From a virus: a DNA stretch of 54,827 nt. The notes under the pieces were generated by a model that made no database searches, was not told where the DNA came from, and was given only the letters and a program-made list of their open reading frames with translations. The translations under genes and the position numbers were made by a program. Position 1 is the first letter of the stretch. Each line of letters opens with the position of its first letter. Below are positions 11,553-45,726 of this stretch, piece after piece. Location of the stretch: positions 1-54,827 of the IMG/VR virus record IMGVR_UViG_3300021376_000077. One strand, written 5' to 3'.

Positions 11553-12984
11553 GATCAACTGTTGCATGTCCTGTCTGATTTAGCTTCGCCTCGGAGACAA
11601 GATAGTTTACCTGCTCTTCGACATCGTATGAGTATATCATTTCAAATGCCCTCTGTGCGGAAAGAAGACCCTGCCCCTGTGCCACATGATAAAAATGAGG
11701 AACTAAAAACATTTCATAATTATTATTACTAATATCATATAAAAATGGCGGACGCTCCTGCCAAAGTTCTAATAGTTCAACAAGATAATCTGGTTTTTCC
11801 ATATGTTTTTGATCTCTCCACATTTGTGAATCCACTCTATCGGAAATGTAATGTAAACATATCATTGCACATATATTTTCCATCATTTTATTCATTTTTT
11901 TATTATATGAATCTTGTAACTTTTTAGAGTTAATATCATAATTACCCAAATTTTGAGTTAAACATCTAATTTGTTGAATTGTTGAACCAATACTTGTGGC
12001 CTCTAGAGGCTCCACAAAAGCTGCCGCTAAGCCAACAGCTACGCAGTTCTTCACCCAAAATTTTTCAAGATGCCCTGGATCAAATCTAAAGGCTCTCGCT
12101 GGTTCAACTTGTCTTTCAAGAAGTTTGGAAACTTCCTGGATTGCTTGATCATCGGTGCAGTGAAGAGATGAATAAACATATCCATTACCTCTTCTGTCCT
12201 GTGTCGGTATTTCCCATACCCAGCCATTTGGCATAGCCCTAGCCCTTGTATAAGGACGTATTTGACCAGAAGGATCAGATTCAGTAGGGAATGCAATAGC
12301 AGAATCCATTTGCATATATTTCTTATAAGAGTTCCATTTTGTATTTCCAAGTTTGGACATCAAAATTCTTTTAAACCCAGTAGCATCAATCCAGAAATCT
12401 GCATCAACAATATCGCCATTGCCAAGAGAAACGGATTGTATATAACCATTTTCACAATTTAAATTTATATTTTCAATTTCAGAATCAATCATTTTAATAT
12501 TTCTAAATATACAAATATTTGTAAAATATTGATTTAATTTGAAAGTATCAAAATGAAACTGATTAACTGACTGATGTGGATAATTAGCATTAACTTTATT
12601 TTCAATTAAAGCTCTTGATGTAATATTTTCTGTGAGGGTTTTATTGTTCTTAATAAGGCCATTATAGAGAGCAAAATAACCAATAGGTTCCTCTGTTGCA
12701 GCATGTGCAACGCTATGGAAATAATCCGGGGTACGGTTGGTCCAGTTTTCAAAACGAATTCCATATTTATGCGTAGCTCTAGACTGCACTAACATGTCTG
12801 CTAATGGAATTTCACACATTTCCATGAAACTTCGCCAGTGCTCGGTTGAGCCTTCGCCAACACCAATAATGCCAATCTTAGAAGAAGATACACAAGTAAT
12901 TTTAAATTTAGGGAAAACTTTTCTTAGGATCAAGGCTGAAATTAGCCCAGCAGTGCCGCCTCCAATAATGGCAATTTTTTTCAT
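11521..12984 (-). CDS. Cassette A: flavin-dependent halogenase (tryptophan halogenase family)
   Basis: 487 aa, close to the usual length of about 500-540. The family uses FADH2, O2 and halide to make hypohalous acid, which a lysine passes to an aromatic substrate. Visible are the FAD-binding GGGTAG near residue 8, the GVGEGST loop at 41-47, the catalytic lysine K73 in ATHKYGIRFENW, the diagnostic WxWxIP at 255-260, and the active-site glutamate E328 in FVEPLEATSIGS. Related phage enzymes are known, including the cyanophage halogenase VirX1. The ATG overlaps the previous stop as ATGA. No flavin reductase gene is nearby, so reduced flavin must come from the host. Substrate unknown; the neighbouring adhesins are candidates. 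Confidence 0.93.
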   Translation of the reverse strand: MKKIAIIGGGTAGLISALILRKVFPKFKITCVSSSKIGIIGVGEGSTEHWRSFMEMCEIPLADMLVQSRATHKYGIRFENWTNRTPDYFHSVAHAATEEPIGYFALYNGLIKNNKTLTENITSRALIENKVNANYPHQSVNQFHFDTFKLNQYFTNICIFRNIKMIDSEIENINLNCENGYIQSVSLGNGDIVDADFWIDATGFKRILMSKLGNTKWNSYKKYMQMDSAIAFPTESDPSGQIRPYTRARAMPNGWVWEIPTQDRRGNGYVYSSLHCTDDQAIQEVSKLLERQVEPARAFRFDPGHLEKFWVKNCVAVGLAAAFVEPLEATSIGSTIQQIRCLTQNLGNYDINSKKLQDSYNKKMNKMMENICAMICLHYISDRVDSQMWRDQKHMEKPDYLVELLELWQERPPFLYDISNNNYEMFLVPHFYHVAQGQGLLSAQRAFEMIYSYDVEEQVNYLVSEAKLNQTGHATVDHAEALRQIQI

Positions 12985-14051
12985 ATAAATTTATATTTAA
13001 TTATTTTCTCTATAATATTTGTATCAAAATTAGTTATTAATTTATTATTTATTACTAATAGTTCTATATCATCCATTGAATTAGTGTCTAGATCAATATT
13101 ATTTACAATACACAATGTATAAACAGAAGACTCTAAAAATGACTTTTCTTTGTACAAAATAGAATTATCAATCGTAAAAGATTTTTTACTATTCTTAAGT
13201 AAAGAATTAAGTGTTTTATATCTAATATGAGATAAAAAATAATTTTCTAATGATTCTGGAAATATATTTTTTTCTTCAATTTCTTGATATATTTCATTAT
13301 TACCCTGTATATATCTGGCAACTCTCATATCTGTTTCCAAGGAATTTATTTCACTTAAAATATCATTTATACCAAGTGCATTTATAAATGCCATTGCTTT
13401 TACGGCAGGACCCTCTTCACTGGAAAATGGAGACTTTGAAACCTCTGACCATTCAAAAATTTGTTTTAAAATACCAGAAAATGTTCTTGAATATGTATTT
13501 ACAATTTGAGTACTTTTATCTTTGAAATCTTGATCTTTTGTATCGGCACGAAAGATATGACCTATACCGCTTGCTGAAAGAACTACCTTCATAGAAATAA
13601 TGTCATATCTAGTTGTTCTTGGATAAAAAGGAACCGGACCAAATTTGTTATAGTCACATCTAACAAATTCTACTCCATTTGATAATGAACCAGTTCCGCC
13701 GTATGTTGATGGTGGTGTGCCAGCAGACGGCAATTCAATTGAATTCCAAAAATTATAAAATGAAAAAGGATGTGTTGTTGATCCTTGAGCAATATCTTGA
13801 AAATTCTCATATGCAAGCATTTGCATAATATAATCACCATTATCACCAACAATTTGATAATCATGATATCCATGCATAGGTGATTTTTCTTTAAAGCAAA
13901 GCAAAACACCATTATCTGTTTGATAATAGTCAACATCAGGTGCTTCAATCAGTCCACCCGTTGTTTTTGCAAATGCTTTAACATCTCCACTTAGATTTGC
14001 TAGATGGAAAAAATCATACTCGAATGGATTAATTTCATTAATATTTTTCAT
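12981..14051 (-). CDS. Cassette A: fusion of a 239-aa-type protein with a GxDP-type helical domain
   Basis: About 356 aa from the ATG at 14051 (ATGA overlap with the hydroxylase stop). No known family recognised. By eye, residues about 190-285 match the C-terminal part of the cassette B 239-aa protein: shared RTxxxxL, EWS, PFxS, EIxxxxxDM, and R[YF][IL][QK]G. The last about 65 residues match the cassette B 82-aa protein: FLESSVYTLCIVNNIDLDT against LLEREIYFLCLKTGVDPEE. In cassette B these two genes are adjacent, so this looks like a gene fusion. It is extremely AT-rich. A structural partner or substrate-presenting protein is possible; function unknown. Confidence 0.8.
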   Translation of the reverse strand: MKNINEINPFEYDFFHLANLSGDVKAFAKTTGGLIEAPDVDYYQTDNGVLLCFKEKSPMHGYHDYQIVGDNGDYIMQMLAYENFQDIAQGSTTHPFSFYNFWNSIELPSAGTPPSTYGGTGSLSNGVEFVRCDYNKFGPVPFYPRTTRYDIISMKVVLSASGIGHIFRADTKDQDFKDKSTQIVNTYSRTFSGILKQIFEWSEVSKSPFSSEEGPAVKAMAFINALGINDILSEINSLETDMRVARYIQGNNEIYQEIEEKNIFPESLENYFLSHIRYKTLNSLLKNSKKSFTIDNSILYKEKSFLESSVYTLCIVNNIDLDTNSMDDIELLVINNKLITNFDTNIIEKIIKYKFI

Positions 14052-14641
14052 ATAAACCACATCACTAAGCTATATTTTACACCAGATGTTACTGGGTGTG
14101 CTATATGGGTGTAAGGGAAATTAGACGGAAACAAAACAAGTTCATTTGTGTTGAGTTTTATTGTTTTTTTGAAATAAGGAAATTCAAGTTCTCCACCTTC
14201 AAAAGATTCTCCAAAACATCCAACTAAACTCAAAACTCTGCTTGTGTCTGGAGAGTGGTCATGGTGTGCGTGATATTGCGAATTATTCTGATATTTTAGC
14301 AATTGCATTCCCTGAATTGACTGTAGATGTAAATCAAAGCAACGTCTATAATCCCATATACATTCATCAATATTGAAAAATATTTCTTTGTATTGTTTTG
14401 CTAAATCTTTAATATCATCAACAACAGTATCATCAAGCAGTGGCCAAACATCGGCTTCCATGGAGCTTCTATATTCTGACTCAGCAGTATTGCCAATATC
14501 ACCAGTAACAGATCTATTCCAAGAAATATACGGCCATGATTTTTCCGTTTCTTTTTCTAAATTTTCTATAAAATCTGATACATCAAAATAATTTTTATAG
14601 ACAAAAACGCACGGCATCTCTTCATATTTTTCAATTAACAC
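14048..14641 (-). CDS. Cassette A: 2-oxoglutarate/Fe(II) dioxygenase, prolyl 4-hydroxylase-like
   Basis: 197 aa from a GTG at 14641, chosen because the resulting start aligns with the cassette B homologue; a TTG at 14650 is also possible. The family hydroxylates amino-acid side chains using 2-oxoglutarate, O2 and Fe(II). The iron ligands are H126 and D128 in YHAHHDHSP (YxxHxD pattern) and H182 in AHPVTSG. K189 in GVKYSLVMWF occupies the 2-oxoglutarate-binding Arg/Lys position of P4H enzymes. GGELEFP near 149-155 matches the conserved jelly-roll strand. It overlaps both flanking genes, so it belongs to one operon with the halogenase. Adhesin proline-glycine or histidine residues are plausible targets, by context only. 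Confidence 0.88.
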   Translation of the reverse strand: MLIEKYEEMPCVFVYKNYFDVSDFIENLEKETEKSWPYISWNRSVTGDIGNTAESEYRSSMEADVWPLLDDTVVDDIKDLAKQYKEIFFNIDECIWDYRRCFDLHLQSIQGMQLLKYQNNSQYHAHHDHSPDTSRVLSLVGCFGESFEGGELEFPYFKKTIKLNTNELVLFPSNFPYTHIAHPVTSGVKYSLVMWFI

Positions 14642-15032
14642 AGTATTCAAAGCTTTCTAACTCTTGATTGTCAATTACAATTTTACAAGATTTTTTGCCA
14701 ATTTCCGATGAATAGATACAGAATTTTGCACGATGTTTTTCTAATAGAAAGGGTTCATGTATATTATCATTAACTAATAATTGAATATTTTTATTAAAAA
14801 TAATATAATCATTATGATACAGAATATTTTGATGAAAATATTGTTTTATATTTTGAAAATAAGAACAATTTCTAAACTCGGGAACTTCAATAATTTCTAC
14901 TTTATCAAAATTACTTTTAGCTTTTTCAATATCTTTACATAAACCAATATTAATTGGTAAATTATTTTTTTTAGATAAAACTGAAGCCTCATCAATTAGA
15001 TTTTCTGAAGGGCAAAACACAACTCTTTTCAT
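14631..15032 (-). CDS. Cassette A: CPSE-motif protein, function unknown
   Basis: 133 aa, no family recognised. It is homologous to the 146-aa cassette B protein at 38518-38958. Both begin with a strand followed by CPSE (VVFCPSENLIDEA and SVYCPSEEFLEEA), then KNxLxIxIG, and both end in a His/Arg-containing strand region. Predicted alpha/beta N-terminus and beta-rich C-terminus. The invariant cysteine near residue 7 could be functional. The order GxDP protein, CPSE protein, hydroxylase is the same in both cassettes. No Shine-Dalgarno is visible; the ATG lies one base after the TAA of the upstream gene, so coupling is likely. Confidence 0.75.
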   Translation of the reverse strand: MKRVVFCPSENLIDEASVLSKKNNLPINIGLCKDIEKAKSNFDKVEIIEVPEFRNCSYFQNIKQYFHQNILYHNDYIIFNKNIQLLVNDNIHEPFLLEKHRAKFCIYSSEIGKKSCKIVIDNQELESFEYCVN

Positions 15033-15033
15033 A

Positions 15034-15267
15034 TTAAAGAGAGTTCAGTTTATTGTTAATTTCTTGATATTTTTTGTACGCATCATATAGATTCGCTTGT
15101 ACACTTGGGGTTTCCCAATCTTTAAAATCTTCGATTTTAGAGAAATCATAAGTATCAGGATCTAAACCAAGTATAACCATTGAAGAATATATTGTAGATT
15201 CAAAACCATTTTTTGCTGCGCTCAATGCAGCTTTTTTTTGTTCATTTGAAAGTGAAAAATTAATCAT
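15034..15267 (-). CDS. Cassette A: small helical GxDP protein
   Basis: 77 aa, two predicted helices joined by the loop LGLDPDTYD near residues 34-42. Four relatives occur in the window as separate genes or a fused domain (38285, 41808, 43126 and the C-terminus of the 12981-14051 protein). All share an alpha-helical start with KxAxL, an aromatic-rich helix end, G[LIV]DP, and a second amphipathic helix ending in K[LF][DN]xL. An AGGAGG Shine-Dalgarno precedes the ATG by 3 bases. It directly follows the His-rich adhesin gene, as the 87-aa relative does for the second adhesin. A role as adhesin or fibre assembly partner is inferred from this pairing. Confidence 0.75.
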   Translation of the reverse strand: MINFSLSNEQKKAALSAAKNGFESTIYSSMVILGLDPDTYDFSKIEDFKDWETPSVQANLYDAYKKYQEINNKLNSL

Positions 15268-15274
15268 TTTCCTC

Positions 15275-16822
15275 CTAAGAATTGATAATTGTTATAACAG
15301 ATCCACCGTTGGCGGAAACACCACCAACAGAACCTCCACTGACATTTGTAGTAGCCGAAATGGGCGTAGCGCTGTCTGTAACTATGATTATACCACCGCC
15401 TCCACCTGATTTACCATTTGTACCAGCCGTAGTGGACCCATTTGTGCCACTAGATCCTGCGCTACCACCAGGACCACCCACACCACCAGGATATGTTCTA
15501 TGACCAACATGAGCCGTTGGACCGCCGATTCTTGCTCTTCCTTGATGATGTTGGCCGTGCAAATCATGCCTTGCTCTAGAAGCATGTGTAATGTGAGAAC
15601 CTTTGGCCCCTACAACGTGATGTGCATCTGCTTCATGGTAATGATTATGCCCAAGAGGACCGGTTGTTGTATTAACATTATGTGCTACAGCACCACTATG
15701 ACCTAATTGACCTCCTGCTGTGTGATCAATGCCATTTTGATGAAAAAAACTAGCGTCAGCACCAACTGGTGCATGACCTGTTGACGCAACGCCATGATGT
15801 GGATTGCTCCCGTGGTGGTGATTGTGAGGATGAACCGGTGTCGCATCGTGTACGGTATAGGCCCATGTTCCGTGAGCATGAGGGGCATATGTTGCAGGGG
15901 TATGACCGCTATGAGGTAAGCCCAATGGATAGGCCCCACTTGAACCAATGCTTATGGTTGGTCCATGCGTTCCATCGCCAGAAATATAATGAGCATGATT
16001 TTGTGTATAGTGAGCAATTGACGCAGCGGGGGCGGTCGTTCCAGTATTACCAACATTACCTAATGTAGCACCAGAGCCAACTGCAATGCTTCCGCCAACC
16101 GTTGCGTTTGATCCTTGAGCTTTAATAACACCAGAACCAGTAATTGATTTGGCACAGATTAAAACAACTGCACCACCAATTCCACCATCACCCTTGATTG
16201 CAGCTGGAACATCAGTTCCTTTAACTCCGTTTGATCCGCTGGCACCCTGTGTTCCAGGGCCACCGGCAGCACCAATATTTCGGCCTGGTAAAGAGCCAGG
16301 TTGTCCTGGCCAAGATGTTGGAGCACCTCCTGCGCCGGTACCGTCTGCAGCAAGCGTTAGCCCTCCCTCAACACCATCTTCTCCACCAGCACCGCCAGAA
16401 AAAGCAATAAAAGCACTATTAGAATCTACATAACCACCAAATATAATATTTTCTAAAGCGTTAAGAACATAAGATGGTGCTTGTGAGGCAATATATGTCG
16501 ATCCCGCAGCATTACCGCCAAGAGATCCTATAGTATTAGAGGCAATGGGGGCTGTTCCTCTTAGAGTTGCAGTTGAAACTGTTGTACCAGAAGCAACGCC
16601 AAGATTTCCATCTAATGTCAAAGTTCCTTTAACAAATACTTTAAAACCGTTTGTGTTTAAATGGCAATTAGAATTAATTGTTAAGTTATTATAATACATG
16701 TCTCTGCTAAGAGAAATATTGGCTACAATAACAACATCGCCATCTGTTCCGACACCGTATACTGAATCATTGCCTATTCTTTGGACTTTTGCTGGCGAAT
16801 TATATTTATCTATTCCTGGCAT
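15275..16822 (-). CDS. Gly-rich and His-rich adhesin (candidate receptor-binding protein)
   Basis: 515 aa. The N-terminal about 90 residues form a beta domain with RIGNDSVYGVGTDGDVV and LNTNGFKVFVKGTLTL, shared with the 239-aa neighbour and with the second pair at 43398-45726. Residues 140-260 are glycine-rich with many PG pairs (WPGQPGSLPG, GGPGTQG). Residues 271-441 are histidine-rich, about 34 His in 170 residues, many as HxH or HH. A further polyglycine stretch covers 446-478. Glycine-rich stretches like these form packed polyglycine II helices in gp38-type tip adhesins, and HxH motifs bind iron in some fibres. Downstream lie the GxDP protein and enzyme cassette A, possible modifiers. Substrate and receptor unknown. 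Confidence 0.75.
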   Translation of the reverse strand: MPGIDKYNSPAKVQRIGNDSVYGVGTDGDVVIVANISLSRDMYYNNLTINSNCHLNTNGFKVFVKGTLTLDGNLGVASGTTVSTATLRGTAPIASNTIGSLGGNAAGSTYIASQAPSYVLNALENIIFGGYVDSNSAFIAFSGGAGGEDGVEGGLTLAADGTGAGGAPTSWPGQPGSLPGRNIGAAGGPGTQGASGSNGVKGTDVPAAIKGDGGIGGAVVLICAKSITGSGVIKAQGSNATVGGSIAVGSGATLGNVGNTGTTAPAASIAHYTQNHAHYISGDGTHGPTISIGSSGAYPLGLPHSGHTPATYAPHAHGTWAYTVHDATPVHPHNHHHGSNPHHGVASTGHAPVGADASFFHQNGIDHTAGGQLGHSGAVAHNVNTTTGPLGHNHYHEADAHHVVGAKGSHITHASRARHDLHGQHHQGRARIGGPTAHVGHRTYPGGVGGPGGSAGSSGTNGSTTAGTNGKSGGGGGIIIVTDSATPISATTNVSGGSVGGVSANGGSVITIINS

Positions 16823-16823
16823 A

Positions 16824-17543
16824 TTAAACCAACTGCGAGTAGATTACTGTTCCGTTTTGGCACCCAGTACCACCAACAACATTTGTGCTTACATTAGCAG
16901 GGAGCGTTGCCTGAGCTGATATTATTATTACAACTCCACCGCCTCCTCCTCCAGAACCGGCAGTCCCTGGTGCGTTAATTGAAGCATTGACAGTGGTTGC
17001 ATCCGTTGATATATATCTAGCACTTAATATTACAACGCCACCACCTGCCCCAGAAGCACCGCCTGCCCCGCCTCTCAAGAATAATGGATTTATTTGAGAG
17101 GCGGTTACTGAGTACCCGCGAACTGCCTGAACCGGCTGATACCAGTACCCACTCTGAGTTGTTTTATCCCCTGTTCCCCCAGCGCTTGTGGTAGGTGCAG
17201 TGGCATTTGCTGTTGCACTATTTCCTCCAAGTGCATTTATAATGTTTCCCCCAGCGGTGGCTCCACCGCCAGCAATACTTCCATTTGCACTAGACCCTGT
17301 TGCAAACCCGATCACAGCACCGTTACGTAATGTTAAAAGATTTTTAACAAACACACGATATCCATTTGTTATTAATTGTATATTTGCTTGAATTTCTAAA
17401 TTAAAATAATACATATCGGATGTCAAAGTAGTATTTGTAGAAATTGTTACAGAACCATCAGAACCAGACCCATAGATAGGGTCTGGAGCATCAATGAATG
17501 ATGCAAAAGCATTGGCTGCTGGATATTTTATAAAACCTGTCAT
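16824..17543 (-). CDS. Gly-rich adhesin-like protein
   Basis: 239 aa, a shorter relative of the next gene. It shows the same N-terminal beta domain: DPIYGSGSDGSVTI near residue 21, then a strand with MYYFNLEI, then LITNGYRVFVKNLLTLRNG. A glycine/alanine-rich second half follows, with SLRGGAGGASGAGGG-like runs and a hydrophobic VVIIISA strand near the end. It lacks the histidine-rich insert. Its counterpart at 45016-45726 stands in the same order before a large adhesin. It probably forms part of the same tip complex. One base separates it from the 515-aa gene. Confidence 0.7.
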   Translation of the reverse strand: MTGFIKYPAANAFASFIDAPDPIYGSGSDGSVTISTNTTLTSDMYYFNLEIQANIQLITNGYRVFVKNLLTLRNGAVIGFATGSSANGSIAGGGATAGGNIINALGGNSATANATAPTTSAGGTGDKTTQSGYWYQPVQAVRGYSVTASQINPLFLRGGAGGASGAGGGVVILSARYISTDATTVNASINAPGTAGSGGGGGGVVIIISAQATLPANVSTNVVGGTGCQNGTVIYSQLV

Positions 17544-20745: not shown

Positions 20746-22689
20746 CTATTCATCATTACTAAGCATTACGCTTATGTAATGAACCAAAAAAGCAACAGAT
20801 GTTGCAATTAAGGTAATCTTTCTAGTATCCCCAGAAAGTGTTGCAAAAACAATAATAGTGCTAGATATTGTAAATGCAAGAGCAGCGGTTTCTTTGCTGA
20901 ACTTTTTAATAAAATTCCATATACTGAATTTTTTCATTCCATCCTCCGTGTATTTATAAATACTATTTGTGGTGTAACTTTCATCATCACCATTTGGCCC
21001 CTCAATCTCGGGAGCCTCCTCATCCTCCTCTTCCCCCTCCTCTTCTTTTTTAAAAGCAGAATTGCTGTCTGATGGCTTGGGGGAGTTTAAACCTCCGCCA
21101 GAACCTCCTGAGCGTGGTTCTGGGCCTCTGACGGGGGCTGCGGCTGCTGCGGTGGCAATGCTTGCTATAGCAAGAAGAGTCCTTCTTTCTTTAACTGGAA
21201 TTGCCGACCCTGTTGGTACATAATCATCAAAACCATCTGCATAAATGTTTATTTCTTCTTCAAAAGCTTCTCTGACTTCTGCCGGGGCATCCTGAACAGC
21301 TTCAATAATTTGAGTTTTTTCTTCTTCTGTTATATCTGAAGTATCAATTGATTGAAAAACCTGTGTGGCTTGTTCTTGCGTTATTTCTTGCAAAACATCT
21401 TTATTTGTAGCCAAATCAACAGCTTCTTCTGTTGTTATAGTTTCTGTAATTTCAGGAATAGTTGTCGTTGTTGGTATTGTTGTTGGGATTGGTAGTGTTG
21501 TTGTCGTTGTACTTGACAATGTTGTTGTCGTTAAACTTGGTGTAATAATCAGTGTAGTGGTAGTGTTTGGAATAGTCGTTGTGGAGGTTGTTGTAGATGT
21601 TGTCGTGGTTTGTTGCACCGTGGTTTCTGGTACCGTGGTTGTTTGCTCTACCGTGCTTGGCGATAACAATATTGTTGTACTGGTGGTTTGAGGAATAGTA
21701 GTAGTCGTTGTAGTTGTTGTAGTGGTAGTAGTGGGCGGAGTAGGATCAATCACCACGGCATCAACAGTTGCCTGGGGTCCGTACATACAGGACCCAGCAC
21801 CCTCTCCGACGCATGGGGCTGTCCCTGCCTGAATCTTAAATCTCACTGGTCCGTATCCAGTTGTTCCAGGCCACATCCATGGGCCGAGGCTGTATGAAGT
21901 ATTTACGGCGTATGTCCACACCCCCCAACCACCAGCTTCTACCCCATCAACCAGGTCATGAAACAAAATGTTGTACATATATGGGGCAGTGTTGCTTGGT
22001 GTTGGGGCGTTCCAACTCAAAACAACATTTCCATCGTTGTCTGCTACCGCTGTGAGATTTTGAACAGAGTTAAAGTATGGCGCTATCGTTGTGGTTGTAG
22101 TACTGGTAGTAGTCGTGGTTGGCGCAACGACAGTCTTCGTAAAAGCAGAGGCGGGAACCACCTGCCATCCCGAACCTATATCCCAGTAGAGAGTCGTATT
22201 GGCTCCGCCACCATTTTCGTAATACCAATATGTGATTGGCTTGGAAACTCCAGCGCTAAAAGAAACGTACTGTGACGGGTTGCCCCAGCCGCCCTTGTCA
22301 ACCCAGTTGTTGTCTATCAAAACATTGTCTATATAGAGTTTGGTTCCGTCATCCGCAGCGGGCAAGAACCTAAACGAGCCAGTCACGGGCAGGGTTATGT
22401 GACCTTCATACTTAACAATAAAGTCTTCGTACATGTTGAACAGCGGTGCATTGTCAAAGTTCTGATTAATCTGAGTGAGAGTGGTGGTTCCAACGACCGG
22501 GCGACCGCTGACCGTGGGGAGTGGAGGCGAATTGTTGTAGCCAAAGTTGTTGTAAACGGTTACACTAAGTCCTGGTTCGGCTTGGGCAGAAATACCGCCA
22601 ATTCCTACCATAGGCGAAATAAATGAGCCGCCAATCGTCGCAAGTAAAATCCAGCTGCCACTTCTGCGGCGAAGTTTCCCGGGGGACAT
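20746..22689 (-). CDS. Surface protein: PA14 domain, fibronectin III domain, Thr-rich linkers, C-terminal membrane anchor
   Basis: 647 aa. The first about 37 residues form a Sec signal peptide (RRRSG, hydrophobic core, AQA before EPG). Residues about 38-190 resemble a PA14 domain (VKYEGHITLPVTGSFRF, DDGTKLYIDNVLIDN). About 210-310 form a fibronectin type III domain (LTAVADNDGNVVLSWNAPT). Long Thr/Ser-rich stretches follow near 195-205 and 315-415, then an acidic helical region, an RRTLLAIASIA segment, a Glu-rich linker, and two hydrophobic C-terminal helices. It would be exported and anchored in the membrane with a carbohydrate-binding-like head. It is the first gene of the leftward transcript. 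Superinfection control, lysis or envelope modification are possible roles. Confidence 0.75.
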   Translation of the reverse strand: MSPGKLRRRSGSWILLATIGGSFISPMVGIGGISAQAEPGLSVTVYNNFGYNNSPPLPTVSGRPVVGTTTLTQINQNFDNAPLFNMYEDFIVKYEGHITLPVTGSFRFLPAADDGTKLYIDNVLIDNNWVDKGGWGNPSQYVSFSAGVSKPITYWYYENGGGANTTLYWDIGSGWQVVPASAFTKTVVAPTTTTTSTTTTTIAPYFNSVQNLTAVADNDGNVVLSWNAPTPSNTAPYMYNILFHDLVDGVEAGGWGVWTYAVNTSYSLGPWMWPGTTGYGPVRFKIQAGTAPCVGEGAGSCMYGPQATVDAVVIDPTPPTTTTTTTTTTTTIPQTTSTTILLSPSTVEQTTTVPETTVQQTTTTSTTTSTTTIPNTTTTLIITPSLTTTTLSSTTTTTLPIPTTIPTTTTIPEITETITTEEAVDLATNKDVLQEITQEQATQVFQSIDTSDITEEEKTQIIEAVQDAPAEVREAFEEEINIYADGFDDYVPTGSAIPVKERRTLLAIASIATAAAAAPVRGPEPRSGGSGGGLNSPKPSDSNSAFKKEEEGEEEDEEAPEIEGPNGDDESYTTNSIYKYTEDGMKKFSIWNFIKKFSKETAALAFTISSTIIVFATLSGDTRKITLIATSVAFLVHYISVMLSNDE

Positions 22690-38284: not shown

Positions 38285-38521
38285 TTGGTTACCATCAATC
38301 GCTCCGTCGCCATGATGGACTCGCTCAAGCAGGAGCTGTTTACGCTGTGCATCCAGAATGGCATTGACCCAGAGACGCTGGACATCGAAAATCCAGATTC
38401 CGACCCAGCAATAGCGGCGTCTACTCCTCACGAGCATAACTTCTATGCAATTCGTAGAATTAAGCAGGTATGCGAGGGATACGTCTTGGCTAAAGGGAAG
38501 TTTGATAATCTAGCCGAGTGA
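38285..38521 (+). CDS. Cassette B: small helical GxDP protein
   Basis: 78 aa from a TTG at 38285; ATGs at 38312 and 38315 would remove the first nine or ten residues, but relatives have longer N-termini, which supports the TTG. Helix, then CIQNGIDPETLDIENPDSD, then a second helix ending AKGKFDNLAE. It is closest in arrangement to the 87-aa gene at 43126 (NGIDPDDIDISNPFEN, LQGKIDSLS). Its stop overlaps the GTG of the CPSE protein (GTGA), as the small protein precedes the CPSE gene in cassette A. Confidence 0.7.
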   Translation: MVTINRSVAMMDSLKQELFTLCIQNGIDPETLDIENPDSDPAIAASTPHEHNFYAIRRIKQVCEGYVLAKGKFDNLAE

Positions 38522-38958
38522 TTCGTTCGGTTTACTGCCCTTCTGAGGAGTTCCTTGAAGAGGCGCAATCTTTAGCTGAAAAAAATAGCCTGTCTATAAC
38601 TATTGGACGGTCGGAATCTATGGAAAATATAGATTTTGACGAAACCAGGGTATGCATTGTCCACATCCCCACAATTCACATTTTTAATATTTCATCGCCG
38701 ACCCTTCCGATTGGACTGATGCAGGCTTTTGGGTATACGTGTGATTACATTGATTTTAAGAAAGATGGCAATACTCCGATACTGAAAGTCAGGTATGGGC
38801 ATAATTTTTCAGAAGAAATAAAAATACAGCCTTTTTATCTAGAGTCCCATATAGCAAAGTATTCGCATAGATTTTCTTCGGCAGGCATACATGATGTGAG
38901 TATTGTTGTTGCCGGGGAAGAATATGTCAAAAATTACACATTTGAGGTGACGGAGTGA
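38518..38958 (+). CDS. Cassette B: CPSE-motif protein, function unknown
   Basis: 146 aa from a GTG in a GTGA overlap. It begins MIRSVYCPSEEFLEEAQSLA followed by EKNSLSITIG, matching the cassette A protein at 14631. The C-terminal half is beta-rich with HIAKYSHRFSSAGIHDVSIV. No catalytic motif recognised apart from the invariant Cys near residue 7. Its stop overlaps the next GTG, so it is translated together with the hydroxylase. Confidence 0.75.
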   Translation: MIRSVYCPSEEFLEEAQSLAEKNSLSITIGRSESMENIDFDETRVCIVHIPTIHIFNISSPTLPIGLMQAFGYTCDYIDFKKDGNTPILKVRYGHNFSEEIKIQPFYLESHIAKYSHRFSSAGIHDVSIVVAGEEYVKNYTFEVTE

Positions 38959-39542
38959 AGATAGAAGTTTTAGCGCCATGCATCAACTATTACACAGAGG
39001 TATATGACGCTTATCCATTAATAGAAATGCTTGAAGAGGAGGCCGATAAATCGTGGCCTCGGATGGAGTGGGCGAGGTCATCTACCGGGCAGGCTGGTAA
39101 TACATCTGTAAATGAGTACCGCTCGTCAATGGAAATGTCCTTGCTACCGATTATGACCGAAGAGGACATACCGGAGTTAAACCACATAAAAGATGGGTTT
39201 CATAAAATATACAGTGAAATAGATAAGTGCGTCTGGGACTACAGAAACCAGTATGAATTATTTATTTCTCGTCACGAGCCATTTAGTGTTTTGAGGTATG
39301 AGAATAGCGCTGAATACCATATACATACAGACTCGTCCCCAGAGAACGGAAGAGTCATGAGTATGGTTGGGTACTTTAACGACGGATATGAGGGCGGAAA
39401 ATTGGAGTTCCCATTATTTAATGTAGAAATTCAGCCAGAGGCCGGCTCTGTAATCCTCTTTAGTTCGGCATATCCATACCAACATGCTGCACACCCAGTA
39501 ACGAAAGGCACCAAGTATTCCTTGGTGACGTGGTTCCAGTGA
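38955..39542 (+). CDS. Cassette B: 2-oxoglutarate/Fe(II) dioxygenase, prolyl 4-hydroxylase-like
   Basis: 195 aa from GTG (GTGA overlap). The iron ligands are H124 and D126 in EYHIHTDSSPENGRV and H180 in HAAHPVTKG; K187 in GTKYSLVTWF would bind 2-oxoglutarate. GGKLEFP near 137-143 is the conserved core strand. It keeps EYRSSME and KSWPRMEW from the cassette A enzyme, well above chance, so the two are clear homologues. GC content is much higher than in cassette A. It overlaps the next gene in GTGA. Confidence 0.88.
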   Translation: MKIEVLAPCINYYTEVYDAYPLIEMLEEEADKSWPRMEWARSSTGQAGNTSVNEYRSSMEMSLLPIMTEEDIPELNHIKDGFHKIYSEIDKCVWDYRNQYELFISRHEPFSVLRYENSAEYHIHTDSSPENGRVMSMVGYFNDGYEGGKLEFPLFNVEIQPEAGSVILFSSAYPYQHAAHPVTKGTKYSLVTWFQ

Positions 39543-40345
39543 GAAAAGTAAAGTACAAGATTGCAAATTTCACTTCGGATATTCCGAGAGTGAAAAAAAA
39601 CGAAATGCTTATAATTCCGCATACAAACCTACTGTGGGAAGTGCCTCCATTTACGAATAGAAACAACAAGCCAGAGTGGTGGAAAAATCTAGAAAAGGGG
39701 AAAGGCTCTCTCCGGAGGTGCCATGGAACTATTGACTACCTGTCTCTGGGCGTCACATTTTCGCTATGGACAAATGTTCACGTAAGACCGACAGCGAACA
39801 ACAAAAGTTTCGAGCTCAAGCTGGACCAAATGGGCGCACCAGAAATGAGGCCAGAGTTTAGAACCGAATGGTTCCCGTACTCCTCAACGGAGGGGTGTCC
39901 GTTTGCAAAAAACAGAGAAATACCTGAAGGCGACTTTCCCAAGCTGGTTACGCCCTGGATGTTTAAAACTGCACCAGGGTATTCCACACTAATCCTTCCG
40001 ACCCTATTTGAGCAAAATCCCAACTATTCAGTTTTGCCGGGAGTTGTTCATACCGACTACTACCACGCAATAAATATTGTTCTCAATATACATACTAAAA
40101 ATGAGTTCACTATACCGATAGGGACCCCCATGTATCAGTTGATTCCATTTAAGAGGAGCGACAATACCTCCGAAATAATCAAGGGCAACGAAAGCATGTG
40201 GAGATTTGTAAACGGAAGAGGTGTTGGCCAGCACTACTTGGGCGATTTTGACAGAAGAATTTCGTACCGCAGGGAGTTGGCGCGAGCCGATGATTCTGTG
40301 GAAAAAGAAGACAAGTCGCTTATTGAAAGAATCCTGAGAAGATGA
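39539..40345 (+). CDS. Cassette B: conserved 268-aa protein of unknown function
   Basis: 268 aa from the GTG at 39539 (GTGA overlap), preferred over a GTG nine bases upstream; this gives the same length as the cassette A homologue. Shared residues: PEWWKN near 45-50, LRRCHGTIDY near 58-67, LVTPWMF near 137, PNYSVLPGVVHTDYYHA near 161-177, FTIPIGTPM, then KGNESMWRFV. The HTD at 171-173 is invariant between copies. Here the gene precedes the halogenase; in cassette A it follows it. Its ATGA overlap couples it to the halogenase. Confidence 0.75.
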   Translation: MRKVKYKIANFTSDIPRVKKNEMLIIPHTNLLWEVPPFTNRNNKPEWWKNLEKGKGSLRRCHGTIDYLSLGVTFSLWTNVHVRPTANNKSFELKLDQMGAPEMRPEFRTEWFPYSSTEGCPFAKNREIPEGDFPKLVTPWMFKTAPGYSTLILPTLFEQNPNYSVLPGVVHTDYYHAINIVLNIHTKNEFTIPIGTPMYQLIPFKRSDNTSEIIKGNESMWRFVNGRGVGQHYLGDFDRRISYRRELARADDSVEKEDKSLIERILRR

Positions 40346-41805
40346 TTAAAACAATATGTGTTGCTGGTTCAGGAACGGCTGGGAACATATTCGCCTTGAT
40401 GCTTAGGCAGGCATTTCCGTCATGTGAAATCATAAAGGTCTACTCTCCAGAAATAGGCATAGTTGGCGTCGGTGAGGGCTCGACTGAACACTGGAAAATG
40501 TTTATGAATATGTGTGAAATCCCATTAGGGGAGATGATTGTAGAGACTTCAGCTACACACAAACTAGGAATTAGGTTCGAAGGGTGGACAAATCACACCC
40601 CTGATTATTTTCACAGTATTAGCGGCAACGAGTATCTAAACCAGTTTGGGCTAATGGGGCTGTACTCGGGTCTTAATGAAAACAGAAAACTTCTAACTAA
40701 TTCAATTTCTTATAGAGGTCTTATAGAGCATTCCGTCCACTCGAAAGACCCACACAACAGGACAAATCAGTTTCACTTTGACACTTTCAAGCTCAATAAA
40801 TACTTCGAAAAGCTGTGTATTCAAAGGAATATAAAACTTGTAGAGGCTGAGATAAAAAATGTGGAAATTGATGTGGAAAACGGACGAATAAAGTCCCTTC
40901 ACCTAGACAATAATAAAGCTGTCAGTGCTGACATATTTATTGACGCAACGGGTTTCAAAAGAGTGCTGATGTCGGCCGTCGGCGCAAATAAATGGAAGTC
41001 ATATTCTAAATTCCTCCCTATGAATGCGGCAATCGCATTTCCTTCAGCTTTGCCAGAAGACAGAAAAATAAACCCCTTCACTAGGGCTATAGCAAAATCA
41101 TCTGGGTGGATGTGGGAAATTCCCACACAAGAGAGACGTGGCAACGGTTATGTGTACTGCTCTGAATTTATTTCTGAAGAAGAGGCTGTTAATGAGGCGT
41201 CTACTCAGGTCGGCTTCGAGGTTGAACCAGCAAGAAAGTTCTCAATAGACCCAGGTTGTCTTGAGGAGCAATGGGTGAAGAACGTCATTTCAGCAGGACT
41301 ATGTTCAAGTTTTGTCGAGCCACTCGAAGCAACCTCCATAGGTTCAACAGTGATGCAATCTGTGGCGGCAGTTAGGTATTTGGCTGGATACAACGGAAGC
41401 CCGGTTTTGGCAAAAAACTACAACGCGCGGATGAATGAAATGATGGAGAATCTCGTGTCCATGATTTCTCTTCACTATCTCTCAGATAGGGGAGATACGG
41501 AATTTTGGAGATTCGCCCAGGGGCTGGATAGGCCGGAATATCTGGTCGAACTTCTGGAGCTTTGGGCAGTGAGACCACCGACAGAGGGGGACATGAAGAA
41601 GGGGCAATATGAGTTATTCCATGAACCCCATTTCTGGCATGTAGCTCAGGGCCAGGGGCTCATCAGCGCTGACGCCTCCTCGCGTATAATTGACATGCTT
41701 GGTATTAGGCAGGCAGTCAACAAAAAAATATGGGACCTCAAGGTTGAGCAAACCGCTGAACCAGTGATTGACCATCTAAAAGCACTACTTGCTCTAAAGG
41801 AGTAA
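40342..41805 (+). CDS. Cassette B: flavin-dependent halogenase (tryptophan halogenase family)
   Basis: 487 aa, the same length as the cassette A enzyme. FAD-binding GSGTAG near residue 9, GVGEGST at 42-48, catalytic lysine K74 in ATHKLGIRFEGW, WxWxIP at 256-261 and active-site glutamate E329 in FVEPLEATSIGS are all present, so the protein should be active. NQFHFDTFKLN near 142 and RRGNGYVY near 265 are the longest blocks shared with copy A. The ATG overlaps the 268-aa gene stop. FADH2 must be supplied by another reductase. Target unknown. Confidence 0.93.
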   Translation: MIKTICVAGSGTAGNIFALMLRQAFPSCEIIKVYSPEIGIVGVGEGSTEHWKMFMNMCEIPLGEMIVETSATHKLGIRFEGWTNHTPDYFHSISGNEYLNQFGLMGLYSGLNENRKLLTNSISYRGLIEHSVHSKDPHNRTNQFHFDTFKLNKYFEKLCIQRNIKLVEAEIKNVEIDVENGRIKSLHLDNNKAVSADIFIDATGFKRVLMSAVGANKWKSYSKFLPMNAAIAFPSALPEDRKINPFTRAIAKSSGWMWEIPTQERRGNGYVYCSEFISEEEAVNEASTQVGFEVEPARKFSIDPGCLEEQWVKNVISAGLCSSFVEPLEATSIGSTVMQSVAAVRYLAGYNGSPVLAKNYNARMNEMMENLVSMISLHYLSDRGDTEFWRFAQGLDRPEYLVELLELWAVRPPTEGDMKKGQYELFHEPHFWHVAQGQGLISADASSRIIDMLGIRQAVNKKIWDLKVEQTAEPVIDHLKALLALKE

Positions 41806-41807
41806 AA

Positions 41808-42056
41808 ATGGGTATAGAACAGTTTCTATCTGCGGAAGATAAAAAGGCTGCACTTGGGGAGGTTAAGTCACTCCTTGAAAGGGAGATTTATTTCCTGTGC
41901 CTGAAAACGGGCGTAGACCCGGAAGAGATTGACCCAGAGACGTTTACCGCTCAGGGGGTAATCAATCCCGTGCCCGTGAGCATGATGACGTACCAAATAA
42001 TTGAAACCCATTGTAAGAATCTAGTAGCGGTTACAGCAAAACTAGCGACAATGTAG
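41808..42056 (+). CDS. Cassette B: second small helical GxDP protein
   Basis: 82 aa, preceded by AAAGGAG. It starts MGIEQFLSAEDKKAALGEVK, then LLEREIYFLCLKTGVDPEE and a second helix. The N-terminus resembles the cassette A 77-aa protein (LSNEQKKAALSAAK), while the middle matches the C-terminal domain of the 356-aa fusion protein. The next gene encodes the other part of that fusion. Confidence 0.72.
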   Translation: MGIEQFLSAEDKKAALGEVKSLLEREIYFLCLKTGVDPEEIDPETFTAQGVINPVPVSMMTYQIIETHCKNLVAVTAKLATM

Positions 42057-42066
42057 GGCCCGGATT

Positions 42067-42786
42067 ATGGTATGGCCCCAGTATCTAACGCTACCAAATG
42101 AGGTAATTTTTAGACCACCGGCAACGGAGCCGCCTGGTTACAATGGCGTTTTTCAGTTAATGAAAAGCTTTTTTGTTGTTGAAGGTCTAAATGTTCCCAG
42201 AACTGGGCGTTGCGAGAATCTTTGCTATAGCTCGGACTCCCCGGTTGTTGGCACAAAATATGAAAGCGAAGTAAACCTACTCGGAAAGAAGTCACCATTT
42301 TCCGGCACCTCACTAAAGACAGAGAATCTAAAAGTAGTGCGGTGGGTAATGGATGTAAAAGGGCTGTTTTCTATTGTGTATCTGGAATACACAGAACACC
42401 CAGTCGTCTATGGTGAATCGAGAGACTCTTTCTATTTGGAACAGGACGACTCCCCGTCAGCGATGTGGGTTGGCAGAACTCTTCCAGAGCTTTTCAAAAA
42501 CATGAGAGAATGGTCCATCCTTCTGGATGACCCCTTCAATTCTGACCACCCCGTTGCACAGATTTCCAAAGCTGCATTTGATTACATGGGCACCCCAGAA
42601 TGGGTGTATGAGGAAATAGATAATATGCCCGATATGCATTTATCTAGATTTCTCAAGGGCGATGAAAACTATAGAGAGCTCGTATGGGGGTTCCCTCAGT
42701 TTTCTAACGAAATGATTGATTGGCTTGACAGCCACTTTAAAGCCAATAAATTCAAATCTCTTGAGCAGATGCTTGAGGAAATGTAA
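42067..42786 (+). CDS. Cassette B: 239-aa protein, homologue of the N-terminal part of the cassette A fusion
   Basis: 239 aa, no family recognised. The N-terminal half is beta-rich (LKVVRWVMDVKGLFSIVYLE); the C-terminal half is helical, with VGRTLPELFKNMREWS, DDPFNSD, a YEEIDNMPDMHLSRFLKGDE segment and a helical end. The helical half aligns with residues about 190-285 of the cassette A fusion protein. It is the last sizeable gene of the rightward block. A substrate-presenting or structural partner of the enzymes is possible. Confidence 0.68.
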   Translation: MVWPQYLTLPNEVIFRPPATEPPGYNGVFQLMKSFFVVEGLNVPRTGRCENLCYSSDSPVVGTKYESEVNLLGKKSPFSGTSLKTENLKVVRWVMDVKGLFSIVYLEYTEHPVVYGESRDSFYLEQDDSPSAMWVGRTLPELFKNMREWSILLDDPFNSDHPVAQISKAAFDYMGTPEWVYEEIDNMPDMHLSRFLKGDENYRELVWGFPQFSNEMIDWLDSHFKANKFKSLEQMLEEM

Positions 42787-42913: not shown

Positions 42914-43129
42914 TCACCAATGCCCGACTGGGCACTCGGCGTGCTGTAGACGCACCTTGAGGTTCATAAAACAACCACACTTACGACACTGGTTTGTCGC
43001 TTCAATAAAATGAGGGCATTCGGTACATATTGAGTACCTATTACGCGCTTCTTCATCGGATGCGTATTTGGTCGACTTCCTGAAAAAGTCTAAAGGAGAG
43101 GCTTTTTTACCGCGATTTTCTCTTGTCAC
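42914..43129 (-). CDS. Small Cys-rich zinc-ribbon-like protein
   Basis: 71 aa from a GTG at 43129, which overlaps the upstream stop as GTGA; the longer ATG-initiated frame would overlap the upstream gene by 49 bases. Residues about 35-71 carry CTECPHF, CRKCGCFMNLKV and AECPVGHW: CxxC, CxxCxC and a final Cys, a pattern seen in small proteins of many marine and freshwater phages, presumably zinc-binding. Function unknown. It is the last gene of the leftward baseplate-adhesin block. Confidence 0.7.
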   Translation of the reverse strand: MTRENRGKKASPLDFFRKSTKYASDEEARNRYSICTECPHFIEATNQCRKCGCFMNLKVRLQHAECPVGHW

Positions 43130-43389
43130 GAAAGAGAGTCTATCTTGCCTTGCAACATGGCGTAAGCATTGCACAGTTCTTCAATTCGTGACACCTCGAT
43201 TGATTTACTGGGATTCTTTTCGTCATCTTTAAGTGATGCCAAAATTGAGTTTTCAAATGGGTTGGAAATATCTATATCATCAGGGTCTATCCCATTGATG
43301 GCCAGCAGTCTGAACAACTCTGTCGCTATTTGTGACTTAGCAGCAGAAAGCGAAGCCATTTTCTGTATGTTTGAAATTTCAAGTTTCAT
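43126..43389 (-). CDS. Small helical GxDP protein next to the second adhesin
   Basis: 87 aa, helix-loop-helix with INGIDPDDIDISNPFENSIL and a C-terminal helix ending MLQGKIDSLS. It follows the 538-aa adhesin gene by 8 bases, as the 77-aa relative follows the 515-aa adhesin. TAGGAGAAG ahead of the ATG gives a good Shine-Dalgarno. This repeated pairing supports a link between the GxDP family and the adhesins. Confidence 0.75.
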   Translation of the reverse strand: MKLEISNIQKMASLSAAKSQIATELFRLLAINGIDPDDIDISNPFENSILASLKDDEKNPSKSIEVSRIEELCNAYAMLQGKIDSLS

Positions 43390-43397
43390 TTCTTCTC

Positions 43398-45014
43398 CTA
43401 ATTATTAAGAACAATTATCTGCATTCCTGGAGTGCCAGCTATGCTCCACGGGGGAATCGGTAAGCTTGATGTACCACCAGAGGTGTCAATTGATATCCCG
43501 GAAGGTGGGGATGTCTCGGTAACCAATATTACTCCTCCTCCGCCCCCAGGATTGCCATTAGTTCCTTCTGTTACTGAGCCAGCAGTTCCCGCTGGTCCGG
43601 CCAATCCAGCTACCCCTGCAGCACCACCAGGCCAATCGAAGGAATAGTGCCCTACGTTTAGAACTGGTCCAGCATGTCTGTGTACATTTACATCATGGGC
43701 TCGGGGCGCTCTATGGTGTACGGTGTACTGGCCGGTAACGTATTGTATGCCGCCGGAGAACCCGCCTTGACCGCTGTTATTTGCCCCAGTATGGTTCACG
43801 TTGGCGTTGTGATGATAATGAACAGGGTTATCAAGTTGCATGTGCGCATAATTACCCGCTGGAGCTCCACCGGTAGATGAAGGAGAGGAAAAGTGATTAT
43901 GGTTTACCCCATTTATAGAAGTAAAATCACCGGCGAACGGAACAAAGTTATTTAGTATCCCATGGTCATGGTGGGTTGCTGCCGCAAAAGTCGGAATACC
44001 ACCTATTGATGCTGAGTAATGCTCTTCATACACATATCTTTGAGACGCAGAGCTGGCATGACTCATGATAAATGAGCCATTCGTTGGGTCTGGAAAACCA
44101 GCCGTACGCGCGCCAGCATGTGAATGCGGCAGTGGGGTTGTGTGGTGGTCCTGTCCACTGTGGTGCGCTGGCCTAGTGTGATGGTATGTATAAAAGGCAA
44201 CAGCGTGTCCAGTCTTAGCGGCTGGAGAAGAGCCTCCCGAACCAGGCGAGCCTCCATGCATTGGCCCTGGCGCTATTGCCGGTGTTTTATCAATTCCATT
44301 CCTTCCTTGACTAAAAATTGTTCCACTTCCAGCGACAGTCTTTGCCGCGACTATTACAACAGGTCCACCAAAACCTCCTGCTCCGCCAACCCCCGCTGTA
44401 CCCGGCGAAGCCAAAGCGCCTCTTGTCCCTGGCGTTGCATCCGAGCCTTTTCCACCAGGAACACCATGGTTGTTTGCATCTGGTGGATACTGTCCAGGAC
44501 TACCGCCTGTACCGGCAGAACCGGGCCATGTTGCAGGGGAATCTGTACCGGGTGTTAGTGTTCCATTTGTTCCAGATGTTCCTCCGGAACCGCCAGAAAG
44601 CTGCCTCAAAATCCCAGAAGACTCCCGGTATGAGCCAGATACAGCAGATTGCACATCATTTAAAATAGATGCGGGTATTTGTGTTGCTGTTGTTCCAGGA
44701 CCAGCTCCGCCTATTGAGTAAATTACCGCAGTAGAAGATGGTGTATTCCCAGATACAGTACCGGAAGTAACAGTTGTATTGCTTTTCACACCTATGGAAC
44801 CATTTATCGTCAGTGCACTTTTCACAAAAACCCTGAACCCATTCGTGTTTAGATGAACCCCAGAATTTATTGTTAGATTGTTATAGTGCATGTCCCTAGA
44901 TAGCGAGGTGTTGGCTGAAATAACAACGTTTCCATCCACGCCACTTCCATAGACAGAATCGTTGCCAATTCTTTGTTTAAAGGTTTTATCTGGAAATCTT
45001 ACGAGCGAACCCAT
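43398..45014 (-). CDS. Gly-rich and His-rich adhesin, second copy
   Basis: 538 aa, homologous to the 515-aa protein. The N-terminal about 90 residues match closely (QRIGNDSVYGSGVDGNVVIS, SLSRDMHYNNLTINS, HLNTNGFRVFVK). Residues 140-265 are Gly-rich with many PG pairs; residues 270-456 are His-rich but share little sequence with the other copy; residues 463-495 are again Gly-rich, with GLAGPAGTAG and a GGGGG run. The conserved frame with a divergent His-rich centre suggests selection on the central part for binding. The target is unknown. Confidence 0.75.
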   Translation of the reverse strand: MGSLVRFPDKTFKQRIGNDSVYGSGVDGNVVISANTSLSRDMHYNNLTINSGVHLNTNGFRVFVKSALTINGSIGVKSNTTVTSGTVSGNTPSSTAVIYSIGGAGPGTTATQIPASILNDVQSAVSGSYRESSGILRQLSGGSGGTSGTNGTLTPGTDSPATWPGSAGTGGSPGQYPPDANNHGVPGGKGSDATPGTRGALASPGTAGVGGAGGFGGPVVIVAAKTVAGSGTIFSQGRNGIDKTPAIAPGPMHGGSPGSGGSSPAAKTGHAVAFYTYHHTRPAHHSGQDHHTTPLPHSHAGARTAGFPDPTNGSFIMSHASSASQRYVYEEHYSASIGGIPTFAAATHHDHGILNNFVPFAGDFTSINGVNHNHFSSPSSTGGAPAGNYAHMQLDNPVHYHHNANVNHTGANNSGQGGFSGGIQYVTGQYTVHHRAPRAHDVNVHRHAGPVLNVGHYSFDWPGGAAGVAGLAGPAGTAGSVTEGTNGNPGGGGGVILVTETSPPSGISIDTSGGTSSLPIPPWSIAGTPGMQIIVLNN

Positions 45015-45015
45015 G

Positions 45016-45726
45016 TTATATGACCTGCATGTAAAAAACTGTCCCAGCGTTTTGACCAGCTACATCCGTAGCCACTCCAGATGGAAGTGAAACCCCACTT
45101 GAAACAATTAATATGACTCCTCCACCGGCAGGTGCTGTTCCTGGAGCCCTAAACGATGCAGTTCCTGATGATGGTCCACCTATGTATCGAGCAGAAACTA
45201 CCACAACTCCACCACCCGGCTGGCTGTTCCCACCAGCGCCGCCCCTAAGGTATGTTGGGCCACCCCCAGATGCGGTGATAGAATAACCAGTTATCGCCTG
45301 ATGTGGAACTCTAAAATATTCAGTGCCGCCTAATGCTGCGGTAGGTGGAGTAGCGGTAAATCCAGAAGCTGAACCACCAAGGCTATGGGTAACCGATGTA
45401 GACGCTGCACCACCCTGCTGTATGGAGCCAGCGGTTGAAAACCCAGTAGTAAAACCAATTACCGAGCTAGAGCCAAAACTGAGAGTTCCCTTTACGAATA
45501 TTCTGTATCCGTTTGGCGCTAGTCGTACTCCAGAGTTAATAGACAAGTTCTGAAAATGAATGTCTCGAGTCATTGAGTAGACGTTCCCAGATGGGGTCAT
45601 GCTTAAAACTGCGCTAGACCCGTCTAGGGTGGCGTTGCCATCCATCCCGGTTCCATATACCGGGTCGGCTGAGTCAAGAAACTGCGCTAGTGTATTTTGC
45701 GCTGGGTAGCGCTCAATGCCAGGCAT
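45016..45726 (-). CDS. Gly-rich adhesin-like protein, second copy
   Basis: 236 aa, homologue of the 239-aa protein at 16824. It shares DPVYGTGMDGNATLDG, a strand with MTRDIHFQNLSINSG, LAPNGYRIFVKGTLSF, and a Gly-rich second half (YLRGGAGGNSQPGGGVVVVS) with a hydrophobic end. It lacks a His-rich insert. One base separates it from the 538-aa gene. Confidence 0.7.
   Translation of the reverse strand: MPGIERYPAQNTLAQFLDSADPVYGTGMDGNATLDGSSAVLSMTPSGNVYSMTRDIHFQNLSINSGVRLAPNGYRIFVKGTLSFGSSSVIGFTTGFSTAGSIQQGGAASTSVTHSLGGSASGFTATPPTAALGGTEYFRVPHQAITGYSITASGGGPTYLRGGAGGNSQPGGGVVVVSARYIGGPSSGTASFRAPGTAPAGGGVILIVSSGVSLPSGVATDVAGQNAGTVFYMQVI

Follow-up and report, generated by a model that had tools for sequence, protein, structure and literature searches.

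Halogenases have been known in phages since the first cyanophage genomes, and the published guesses about their role are antibiotics or secondary metabolites. The clusters of halogenases with 2OG dioxygenases in jumbo cyanophages have been read as biosynthetic and directed at secondary metabolites (PMC7824862), and the views given in a cyanophage paper (PMC2984593) and a lake-phage paper (PMC10611076) favour secondary metabolites as well. A different precedent is MibH, a flavin halogenase that acts only on Trp in its gene-encoded peptide (PMC10373908). In regard to phage fibres, HxH motifs in T4 gp37 and in fibres of other phages bind, or are proposed to bind, iron (PMC11705849).

The locus described here resembles these systems in part. 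Like the jumbo cyanophage clusters (PMC7824862), it combines a halogenase and a 2OG dioxygenase within a phage, but the cyanophage clusters also contain carbamoyl transferases, cupins and phosphatases, whereas here a compact set is fixed behind a pair of fibre genes. Carbamoyl transferases, cupins and HAD phosphatases are absent from the Pfam matches of the window's cassette, with neighbouring unknown ORFs only sampled. The likeness to MibH, which halogenates a RiPP peptide, would lie in a flavin halogenase with a gene-encoded substrate; in MibH that substrate is an antibiotic precursor, while for the cassette halogenase the proposed substrate is the phage fibre. The literature searched makes no mention of a fibre link for phage halogenases, and the cassette itself is likewise undescribed there.

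Two related cassettes in the window

The window, meaning the whole stretch of DNA analysed, is a virus record of 54,827 bases. Cassette B comprises seven ORFs at 38285-42786, all on the + strand. Its features, those of its fibre region and those of the related cassette A are as follows, with phage 1 and phage 2 standing for the left-hand and right-hand parts of the window.

38285..38521, +: GxDP small protein 1, 78 aa, TTG start; aligns with the window's other three GxDP copies
38518..38958, +: CPSE protein, 146 aa; 31.6% identity to 14631-15032
38955..39542, +: predicted 2OG-Fe(II) dioxygenase of prolyl-4-hydroxylase type (Pfam PF13640, 1.9e-15)
39530..40345, +: 271-aa protein of the f268 family; fold predicted to be dUTPase-like, catalytic Asp replaced
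40342..41805, +: predicted flavin-dependent halogenase, 487 aa (Pfam PF04820, 2e-96)
41808..42056, +: GxDP small protein 2, 82 aa (blastp and GxDP alignment)
42067..42786, +: 239-aa protein (p239 family), predicted fold without a PDB match
42914..43174, -: Cys-rich 86-aa protein, DUF6171-like (PF19668, 1.8e-5, below cut-off)
43126..43389, -: GxDP small protein 3, directly behind fibre 2; 7e-8 to 15034-15267
43398..45014, -: fibre 2 of phage 2, 538 aa; 36-42% to 15275-16822
45016..45726, -: fibre 1 of phage 2, 236 aa, Gly-rich; 43.7% to 16824-17543
10746..15267, -: cassette A of phage 1, matching families of cassette B in blastp
15034-15267, -: GxDP of cassette A
14631-15032, -: CPSE of cassette A
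14048-14650, -: 2OG hydroxylase of cassette A
12981-14060, -: fusion of 239-aa and GxDP types in cassette A, 359 aa
11521-12984, -: halogenase of cassette A
10746-11567, -: 273-aa protein of cassette A, counterpart of the 271-aa protein
15275..17543, -: fibre pair of phage 1 (fibre 2 at 15275-16822, fibre 1 at 16824-17543)
21434..21719, no strand: chimera joint, in the low-complexity Thr-repeat part of ORF 20746-22689

An earlier note had described this region as a second, rearranged copy of the cassette, with the same families recurring on the other strand. The recurrence of the families holds, with matches far above chance. In blastp the two halogenases are 51.6% identical over 486 aa, the 271-aa protein and its counterpart 47.9% (1e-85), the 2OG hydroxylases 43.3% (6e-64) and the CPSE proteins 31.6% (1e-13); the GxDP proteins match at about 1e-5 to 1e-7, and the 239-aa protein matches the 359-aa fusion at 1e-5. 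The rearrangements are real as well. The order of the halogenase and the 271-aa protein (called the 268-aa protein in the note) is swapped between the cassettes, and the fusion is split in cassette B, as the C-termini of long 239-type proteins align to the GxDP profile (hhalign E 7e-7). The gene order of cassette B is unusual, since the 271-aa protein lies ahead of the halogenase in only 3 of the 76 cassettes that have it, cassette B being one and locus L131 another. Its strand is unusual as well, being opposite to that of its fibres (43398-45726, -).

The notion of a second copy within one genome, on the other hand, did not survive comparison with other contigs, because these hold the halves apart, each with one halogenase, and because the window ends in two different tape-measure genes. 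Window positions 1-21434 match contigs 3300020578_000067 (63.5 kb) and 3300020190_000108 (44.5 kb) at 99.9-100% identity, and both contigs stop precisely at 21434. Three further contigs (3300020183_000184, 3300021424_000003 of 119 kb, and 3300020179_000114) match 21719-54827. Each of these five contigs carries a single halogenase. Across the joint, 3300020183_000184 runs on into 6.9 kb of differing sequence, with an intact 684-aa version of the joint gene and its own M15-type endolysin replacing the left half. The left end of the window lies inside a gene for a 5369-aa tape-measure protein and the right end inside a different one of 1655 aa. A tail sheath (5.6e-35) and a tube are present in the right-hand phage. 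In the left-hand one are a major tail protein and a head-tail adaptor, and no tail sheath was noticed in its 63.5-kb fragment. Between the window's two phages, blastp found only the cassette and fibre-related genes in common.

Thus, the window is very probably a chimeric contig, with 1-21434 from one phage and about 21719-54827 from another that has a contractile tail, and cassette B is very probably the single copy of that other phage, joined on by the assembler. A real mosaic phage carrying both cassettes is most improbable. A true double-cassette lineage, described below, is known from other contigs, but a mosaic here would require two tape-measure genes and two tail types in a phage whose halves are also found on contigs of their own, and beyond the joint one of these contigs runs on with other sequence; the joint, moreover, falls within a low-complexity repeat, and the GC content of the halves is 0.387 and 0.462. 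As a general caution, paired related cassettes on a single metagenomic contig may be an assembly artefact.

Predicted proteins of the cassette

The 487-aa protein is a predicted flavin-dependent halogenase (PF04820), its activity likewise predicted. Mapped through an alignment with PyrH, the catalytic residues K74 (PyrH K75) and E329 (PyrH E354) are each present in 83/83, as are the glycines of the FAD motif GxGxxG, here GSGTAG. In the WxWxIP motif, W256 and P261 are conserved in 83/83, I260 in 80/83 and W258 in 75/83, with F in the other 8. PDB matches include PyrH, RebH, PrnA and VirX1, and entry 5uao, the structure of MibH, is matched at 9e-45. The cassette halogenase shares the GxGxxG motif, the WxWxIP Trp, the Lys and the Glu with PyrH, RebH, PrnA, BrvH and cyanophage VirX1, with a profile match over most of its length, but unlike these enzymes it is coupled to tail-fibre genes and to a partner of predicted dUTPase fold. 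The profile alignments to PrnA and PyrH end near query residue 410, so that neither predicts its substrate preference. The majority of the characterised relatives use small aromatics or free tryptophan as substrates, which counts against the fibre as substrate.

The hydroxylase is a predicted 2OG-Fe(II) dioxygenase of the prolyl-4-hydroxylase type, with prolyl hydroxylation putative. Among 78 relatives, the iron triad and the 2OG Lys are retained at H124 and D126 (76 each), H177 (77) and K187 (73). Its nearest solved structures are bacterial prolyl 4-hydroxylases (PDB 3itq/5hv0, E 6e-8), and it shares the 2OG fold, the HxD...H motif and the Lys with the Bacillus anthracis type.

The AF2 model of the 271-aa protein (pLDDT 86.5) resembles dUTPases (PF00692) with a Foldseek E of 1.3e-4 and a VIA Z of 9.9 over 128 residues at rmsd 4.9, and the protein has a motif-3-like stretch. 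It differs from dUTPases in being longer, in standing nearly always beside the halogenase and in the replacement of the catalytic Asp of motif 3, the position being His in 51 and Asn in 23 of the 74 relatives with a residue there. We therefore rejected a dUTPase function, and regard the protein as probably a non-catalytic member of a dUTPase-like fold. Among 50,697 phage records it gave one weak match, in Cyanophage S-RIM4 (E 5e-7). The 239-aa protein (AF2 model, pLDDT 88.1) has no fold match in the PDB (best Foldseek E 0.93, VIA Z 2.2), which does not imply a novel fold, and the CPSE protein (38518..38958) has no Pfam or PHROG match.

Linkage of the cassette to a fibre pair

Across about 80 non-redundant halogenase loci, from uncultivated phages of water, the cassette lies directly behind two Gly-rich fibre genes. 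Where IMG/VR was searched from the halogenase (closest 80 loci sampled), the usual order is fibre 1, fibre 2, GxDP, CPSE, hydroxylase, halogenase and 271-aa protein, with p239 before or after. The 83 non-redundant halogenase cassettes from all scans include the hydroxylase in 78, the 271-aa protein in 76, the fibres in 75, GxDP in 70 and CPSE in 66. Searches from the other side agree. Anchored on fibre 2, the halogenase was found in 32/32 non-identical loci whose contig extends past the fibre by more than 6 kb, the 8 loci that have none all being ended by the contig end; anchored on fibre 1, it was found in 31/31 loci under the same condition (more than 6 kb), and 13 others were cut. The 271-aa protein led to a halogenase in 50/53 loci, and 12/13 CPSE-anchored loci agree with the linkage. 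These anchored sets overlap and sample the viral contigs closest to the window's proteins. For p239 and CPSE, profiles of all members were too divergent for searching, and closer subsets worked.

The fibres, which the earlier note left out of the system, are the most consistent partner of the cassette families. One phage lineage with two fibre pairs has two full cassettes, one per pair, with halogenases 48% identical, and it was found in two assemblies that are 99.9% identical over 21 kb; double copies of the cassette therefore exist in another phage lineage, but not demonstrably in this window. One genome scan gave three MAG contigs that carry the cassette; the fibre pair is complete in two of them, and the third is cut. 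We interpret all three as phage and rejected a bacterial chromosomal origin. Accessory genes vary; additional 2OG enzymes occur, and one locus carries a sulfotransferase-like gene behind the cassette. Some loci have an ORF of 200-290 aa ahead of the halogenase; its kinship with p239, which we considered, found no support in hhalign, and one member is weakly methyltransferase-like (E 0.045). A known defence system was also rejected, PADLOC having returned a generic 2OG domain only.

The families are congruent and travel together among otherwise unrelated phages. Mantel correlations between distance matrices range from 0.52 to 0.89 among cassette families (all p=0.001), with the halogenase correlating at 0.89 with the 271-aa protein, 0.83 with fibre 2, 0.72 with CPSE and GxDP, and 0.67 with the hydroxylase. 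The tail genes nearby show no such parallel, with r about 0.2 or less. The gene immediately upstream of the fibres gave 0.21 (N 60), an imperfect control in that paralogues occur in the same phages, and another gene of the fibre region gave 0.18 (N 44). The single-copy controls, small at N 9-11, gave 0.04 for the M15 endolysin, -0.06 for the tube and 0.17 for the adaptor. The earlier note's argument that the families work as one system is therefore well supported by co-occurrence in about 80 non-redundant loci and by these correlations. Single members alone, which the note had considered damaging to that argument if frequent, are rare for the halogenase, the 271-aa protein, CPSE and the hydroxylase, but GxDP and p239 also recur as a separate set adjoining a Cys-rich gene and with no halogenase nearby. 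The Cys-rich 86-aa protein recurs beside GxDP and p239, and its membership of the cassette is uncertain. Related halogenases (34-38% identity) of cyanophages P-SSM2 and S-H38 and of pelagiphage HTVC008M also stand without the rest of the cassette.

In the family alignments, fibre 1 is Gly-rich with few His, and fibre 2 has Gly-rich segments flanking a His-rich middle. Most of the fibre 2 sequences listed are rich in HxH motifs (1-15), and a few show weak His clustering only, with a maximum of 5-7 His per 60 aa. Median identity within fibre 2 is 0.75 in the His-rich part, compared with 0.79 and 0.82 elsewhere, a modestly faster divergence that is not decisive. No homologue of fibre 2 was found in isolated phages among the 50,697 phage records. 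The cassette fibres resemble collagen-like phage fibres in being Gly-rich but differ by the His-rich middle, and their hydroxylation is putative. The middle may bind metal, because HxH motifs in T4-type fibres bind iron (PMC11705849).

A possible role in fibre maturation

On balance, we lean towards the cassette being a tail-fibre maturation module that hydroxylates and halogenates the Gly/His-rich fibre. We infer the fibre as substrate, the 271-aa protein as partner of the halogenase, and GxDP and p239 as fibre-handling proteins. Before virion assembly, the hydroxylase and halogenase would alter Pro, His, Tyr or Trp side chains of the fibre; the protein of dUTPase-like fold, nearly always paired with the halogenase, may hold or present the substrate, and GxDP and p239 may act as small, chaperone-like proteins that handle the fibre. 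The modified fibre, possibly metal-binding, could be sturdier or better at host binding. The Nereis jaw protein, a Gly/His-rich, halogenated, metal-binding material, is a useful analogy. The linkage from the fibre side, complete among the loci sampled, the parallel divergence, the two cassettes with two fibre pairs, the conserved active-site residues and the precedent of MibH all speak for this model, and the halogenases of P-SSM2, S-H38 and HTVC008M, which stand without the cassette, and the GxDP and p239 genes with no halogenase nearby speak against it. Linkage and correlated distances indicate common inheritance and are not proof that the fibre is the substrate.

Alternatively, the cassette may make a halogenated, hydroxylated metabolite or decorate a host polysaccharide in the course of infection, its proximity to the fibres reflecting the nature of both as variable, adaptive cargo. 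This follows the published reading of the cyanophage clusters (PMC7824862; also PMC2984593 and PMC10611076), and the sulfotransferase-like gene behind one cassette would suit it. We nevertheless consider it rather unlikely, as we saw in the cassette no genes of the carbamoyl-transferase, NRPS/PKS or sugar type, the fibre-side linkage, complete among the loci sampled, is tighter than cargo requires, and two-fibre phages carry two cassettes. It is distinctly less likely that the His-rich middle binds iron or zinc in the manner of T4 gp37 and that the cassette mainly aids metal loading or folding, halogenation or hydroxylation of His being secondary. The abundant HxH motifs of most fibre 2 sequences listed and the iron precedent in phage fibres (PMC11705849) favour metal loading, but a halogenase is unnecessary for it, T4-type fibres bind iron with no such genes, and the His clustering of a few fibre 2 proteins is weak. 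Modification of nucleotides or DNA, in which the dUTPase-fold protein would bind nucleotides and the two oxidative enzymes modify a base, draws on that fold and on a weak TET/JBP match of the hydroxylase (0.0034); we hold it to be very unlikely given the His or Asn at the motif-3 Asp position in 74/74, the match of the hydroxylase to prolyl hydroxylases in the PDB, and a fibre linkage that it leaves without reason.

Our preferred reading, fibre maturation, fits into a broader discussion of what phage halogenases act upon. One halogenase clade, together with a hydroxylase and a defined fibre pair, recurs in phages that otherwise share almost nothing, and the fibre is thus a concrete candidate substrate. 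That phages carry enzymes dedicated to hydroxylating and halogenating the tail fibres they make, with a halogenated Gly/His-rich structural protein as the product, is a serious possibility that we place just short of probable. If true, the chemical treatment of the fibre would amount to a form of virion maturation that the literature searched does not describe, and the finishing of fibres by phages would bear on host recognition, fibre stability, metal binding and protein-halogenating enzymes.

Cassette sets in tandem and members found apart

Two complete sets of fibre pair plus cassette stand in tandem in one phage lineage, represented by L316 (3300042545_001591) and L317 (3300042291_001557), and the halogenases of the two sets are 48% identical to each other.

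At loci L196-L207, the Cys-rich gene, GxDP and p239 form a repeatedly found set that adjoins large ORFs, with halogenase absent nearby. The 271-aa family is duplicated in tandem at L103 and L104, where halogenase is absent within the stretch examined. Actinomycetia phage DSL-LC01 (L125) carries a more distant halogenase (23% identity), which follows shortly after a pair of genes with collagen-like annotations; a single hypothetical gene lies in between.

Accessory ORFs

Additional ORFs accompany some of the cassettes:
L132:11438-12130, a gene resembling sulfotransferases (PF13469, 2e-6) that follows the cassette
L161:7775-8482 and similar, ORF of 200-290 aa preceding the halogenase in about 20 cassettes in which p239 was not found

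One member of the latter group shows a weak likeness to methyltransferases (E 0.045).

Fibre repeats and the probable joint in the window

The starts of two adjacent fibre genes in the window carry repeats with 79.8% identity (29367-29554 and 30344-30531).

Positions 21434-21719, inside a Thr-repeat, are very probably a junction between two phages. Other findings from the first reading that treat both halves of the window as a single genome need to be read again.
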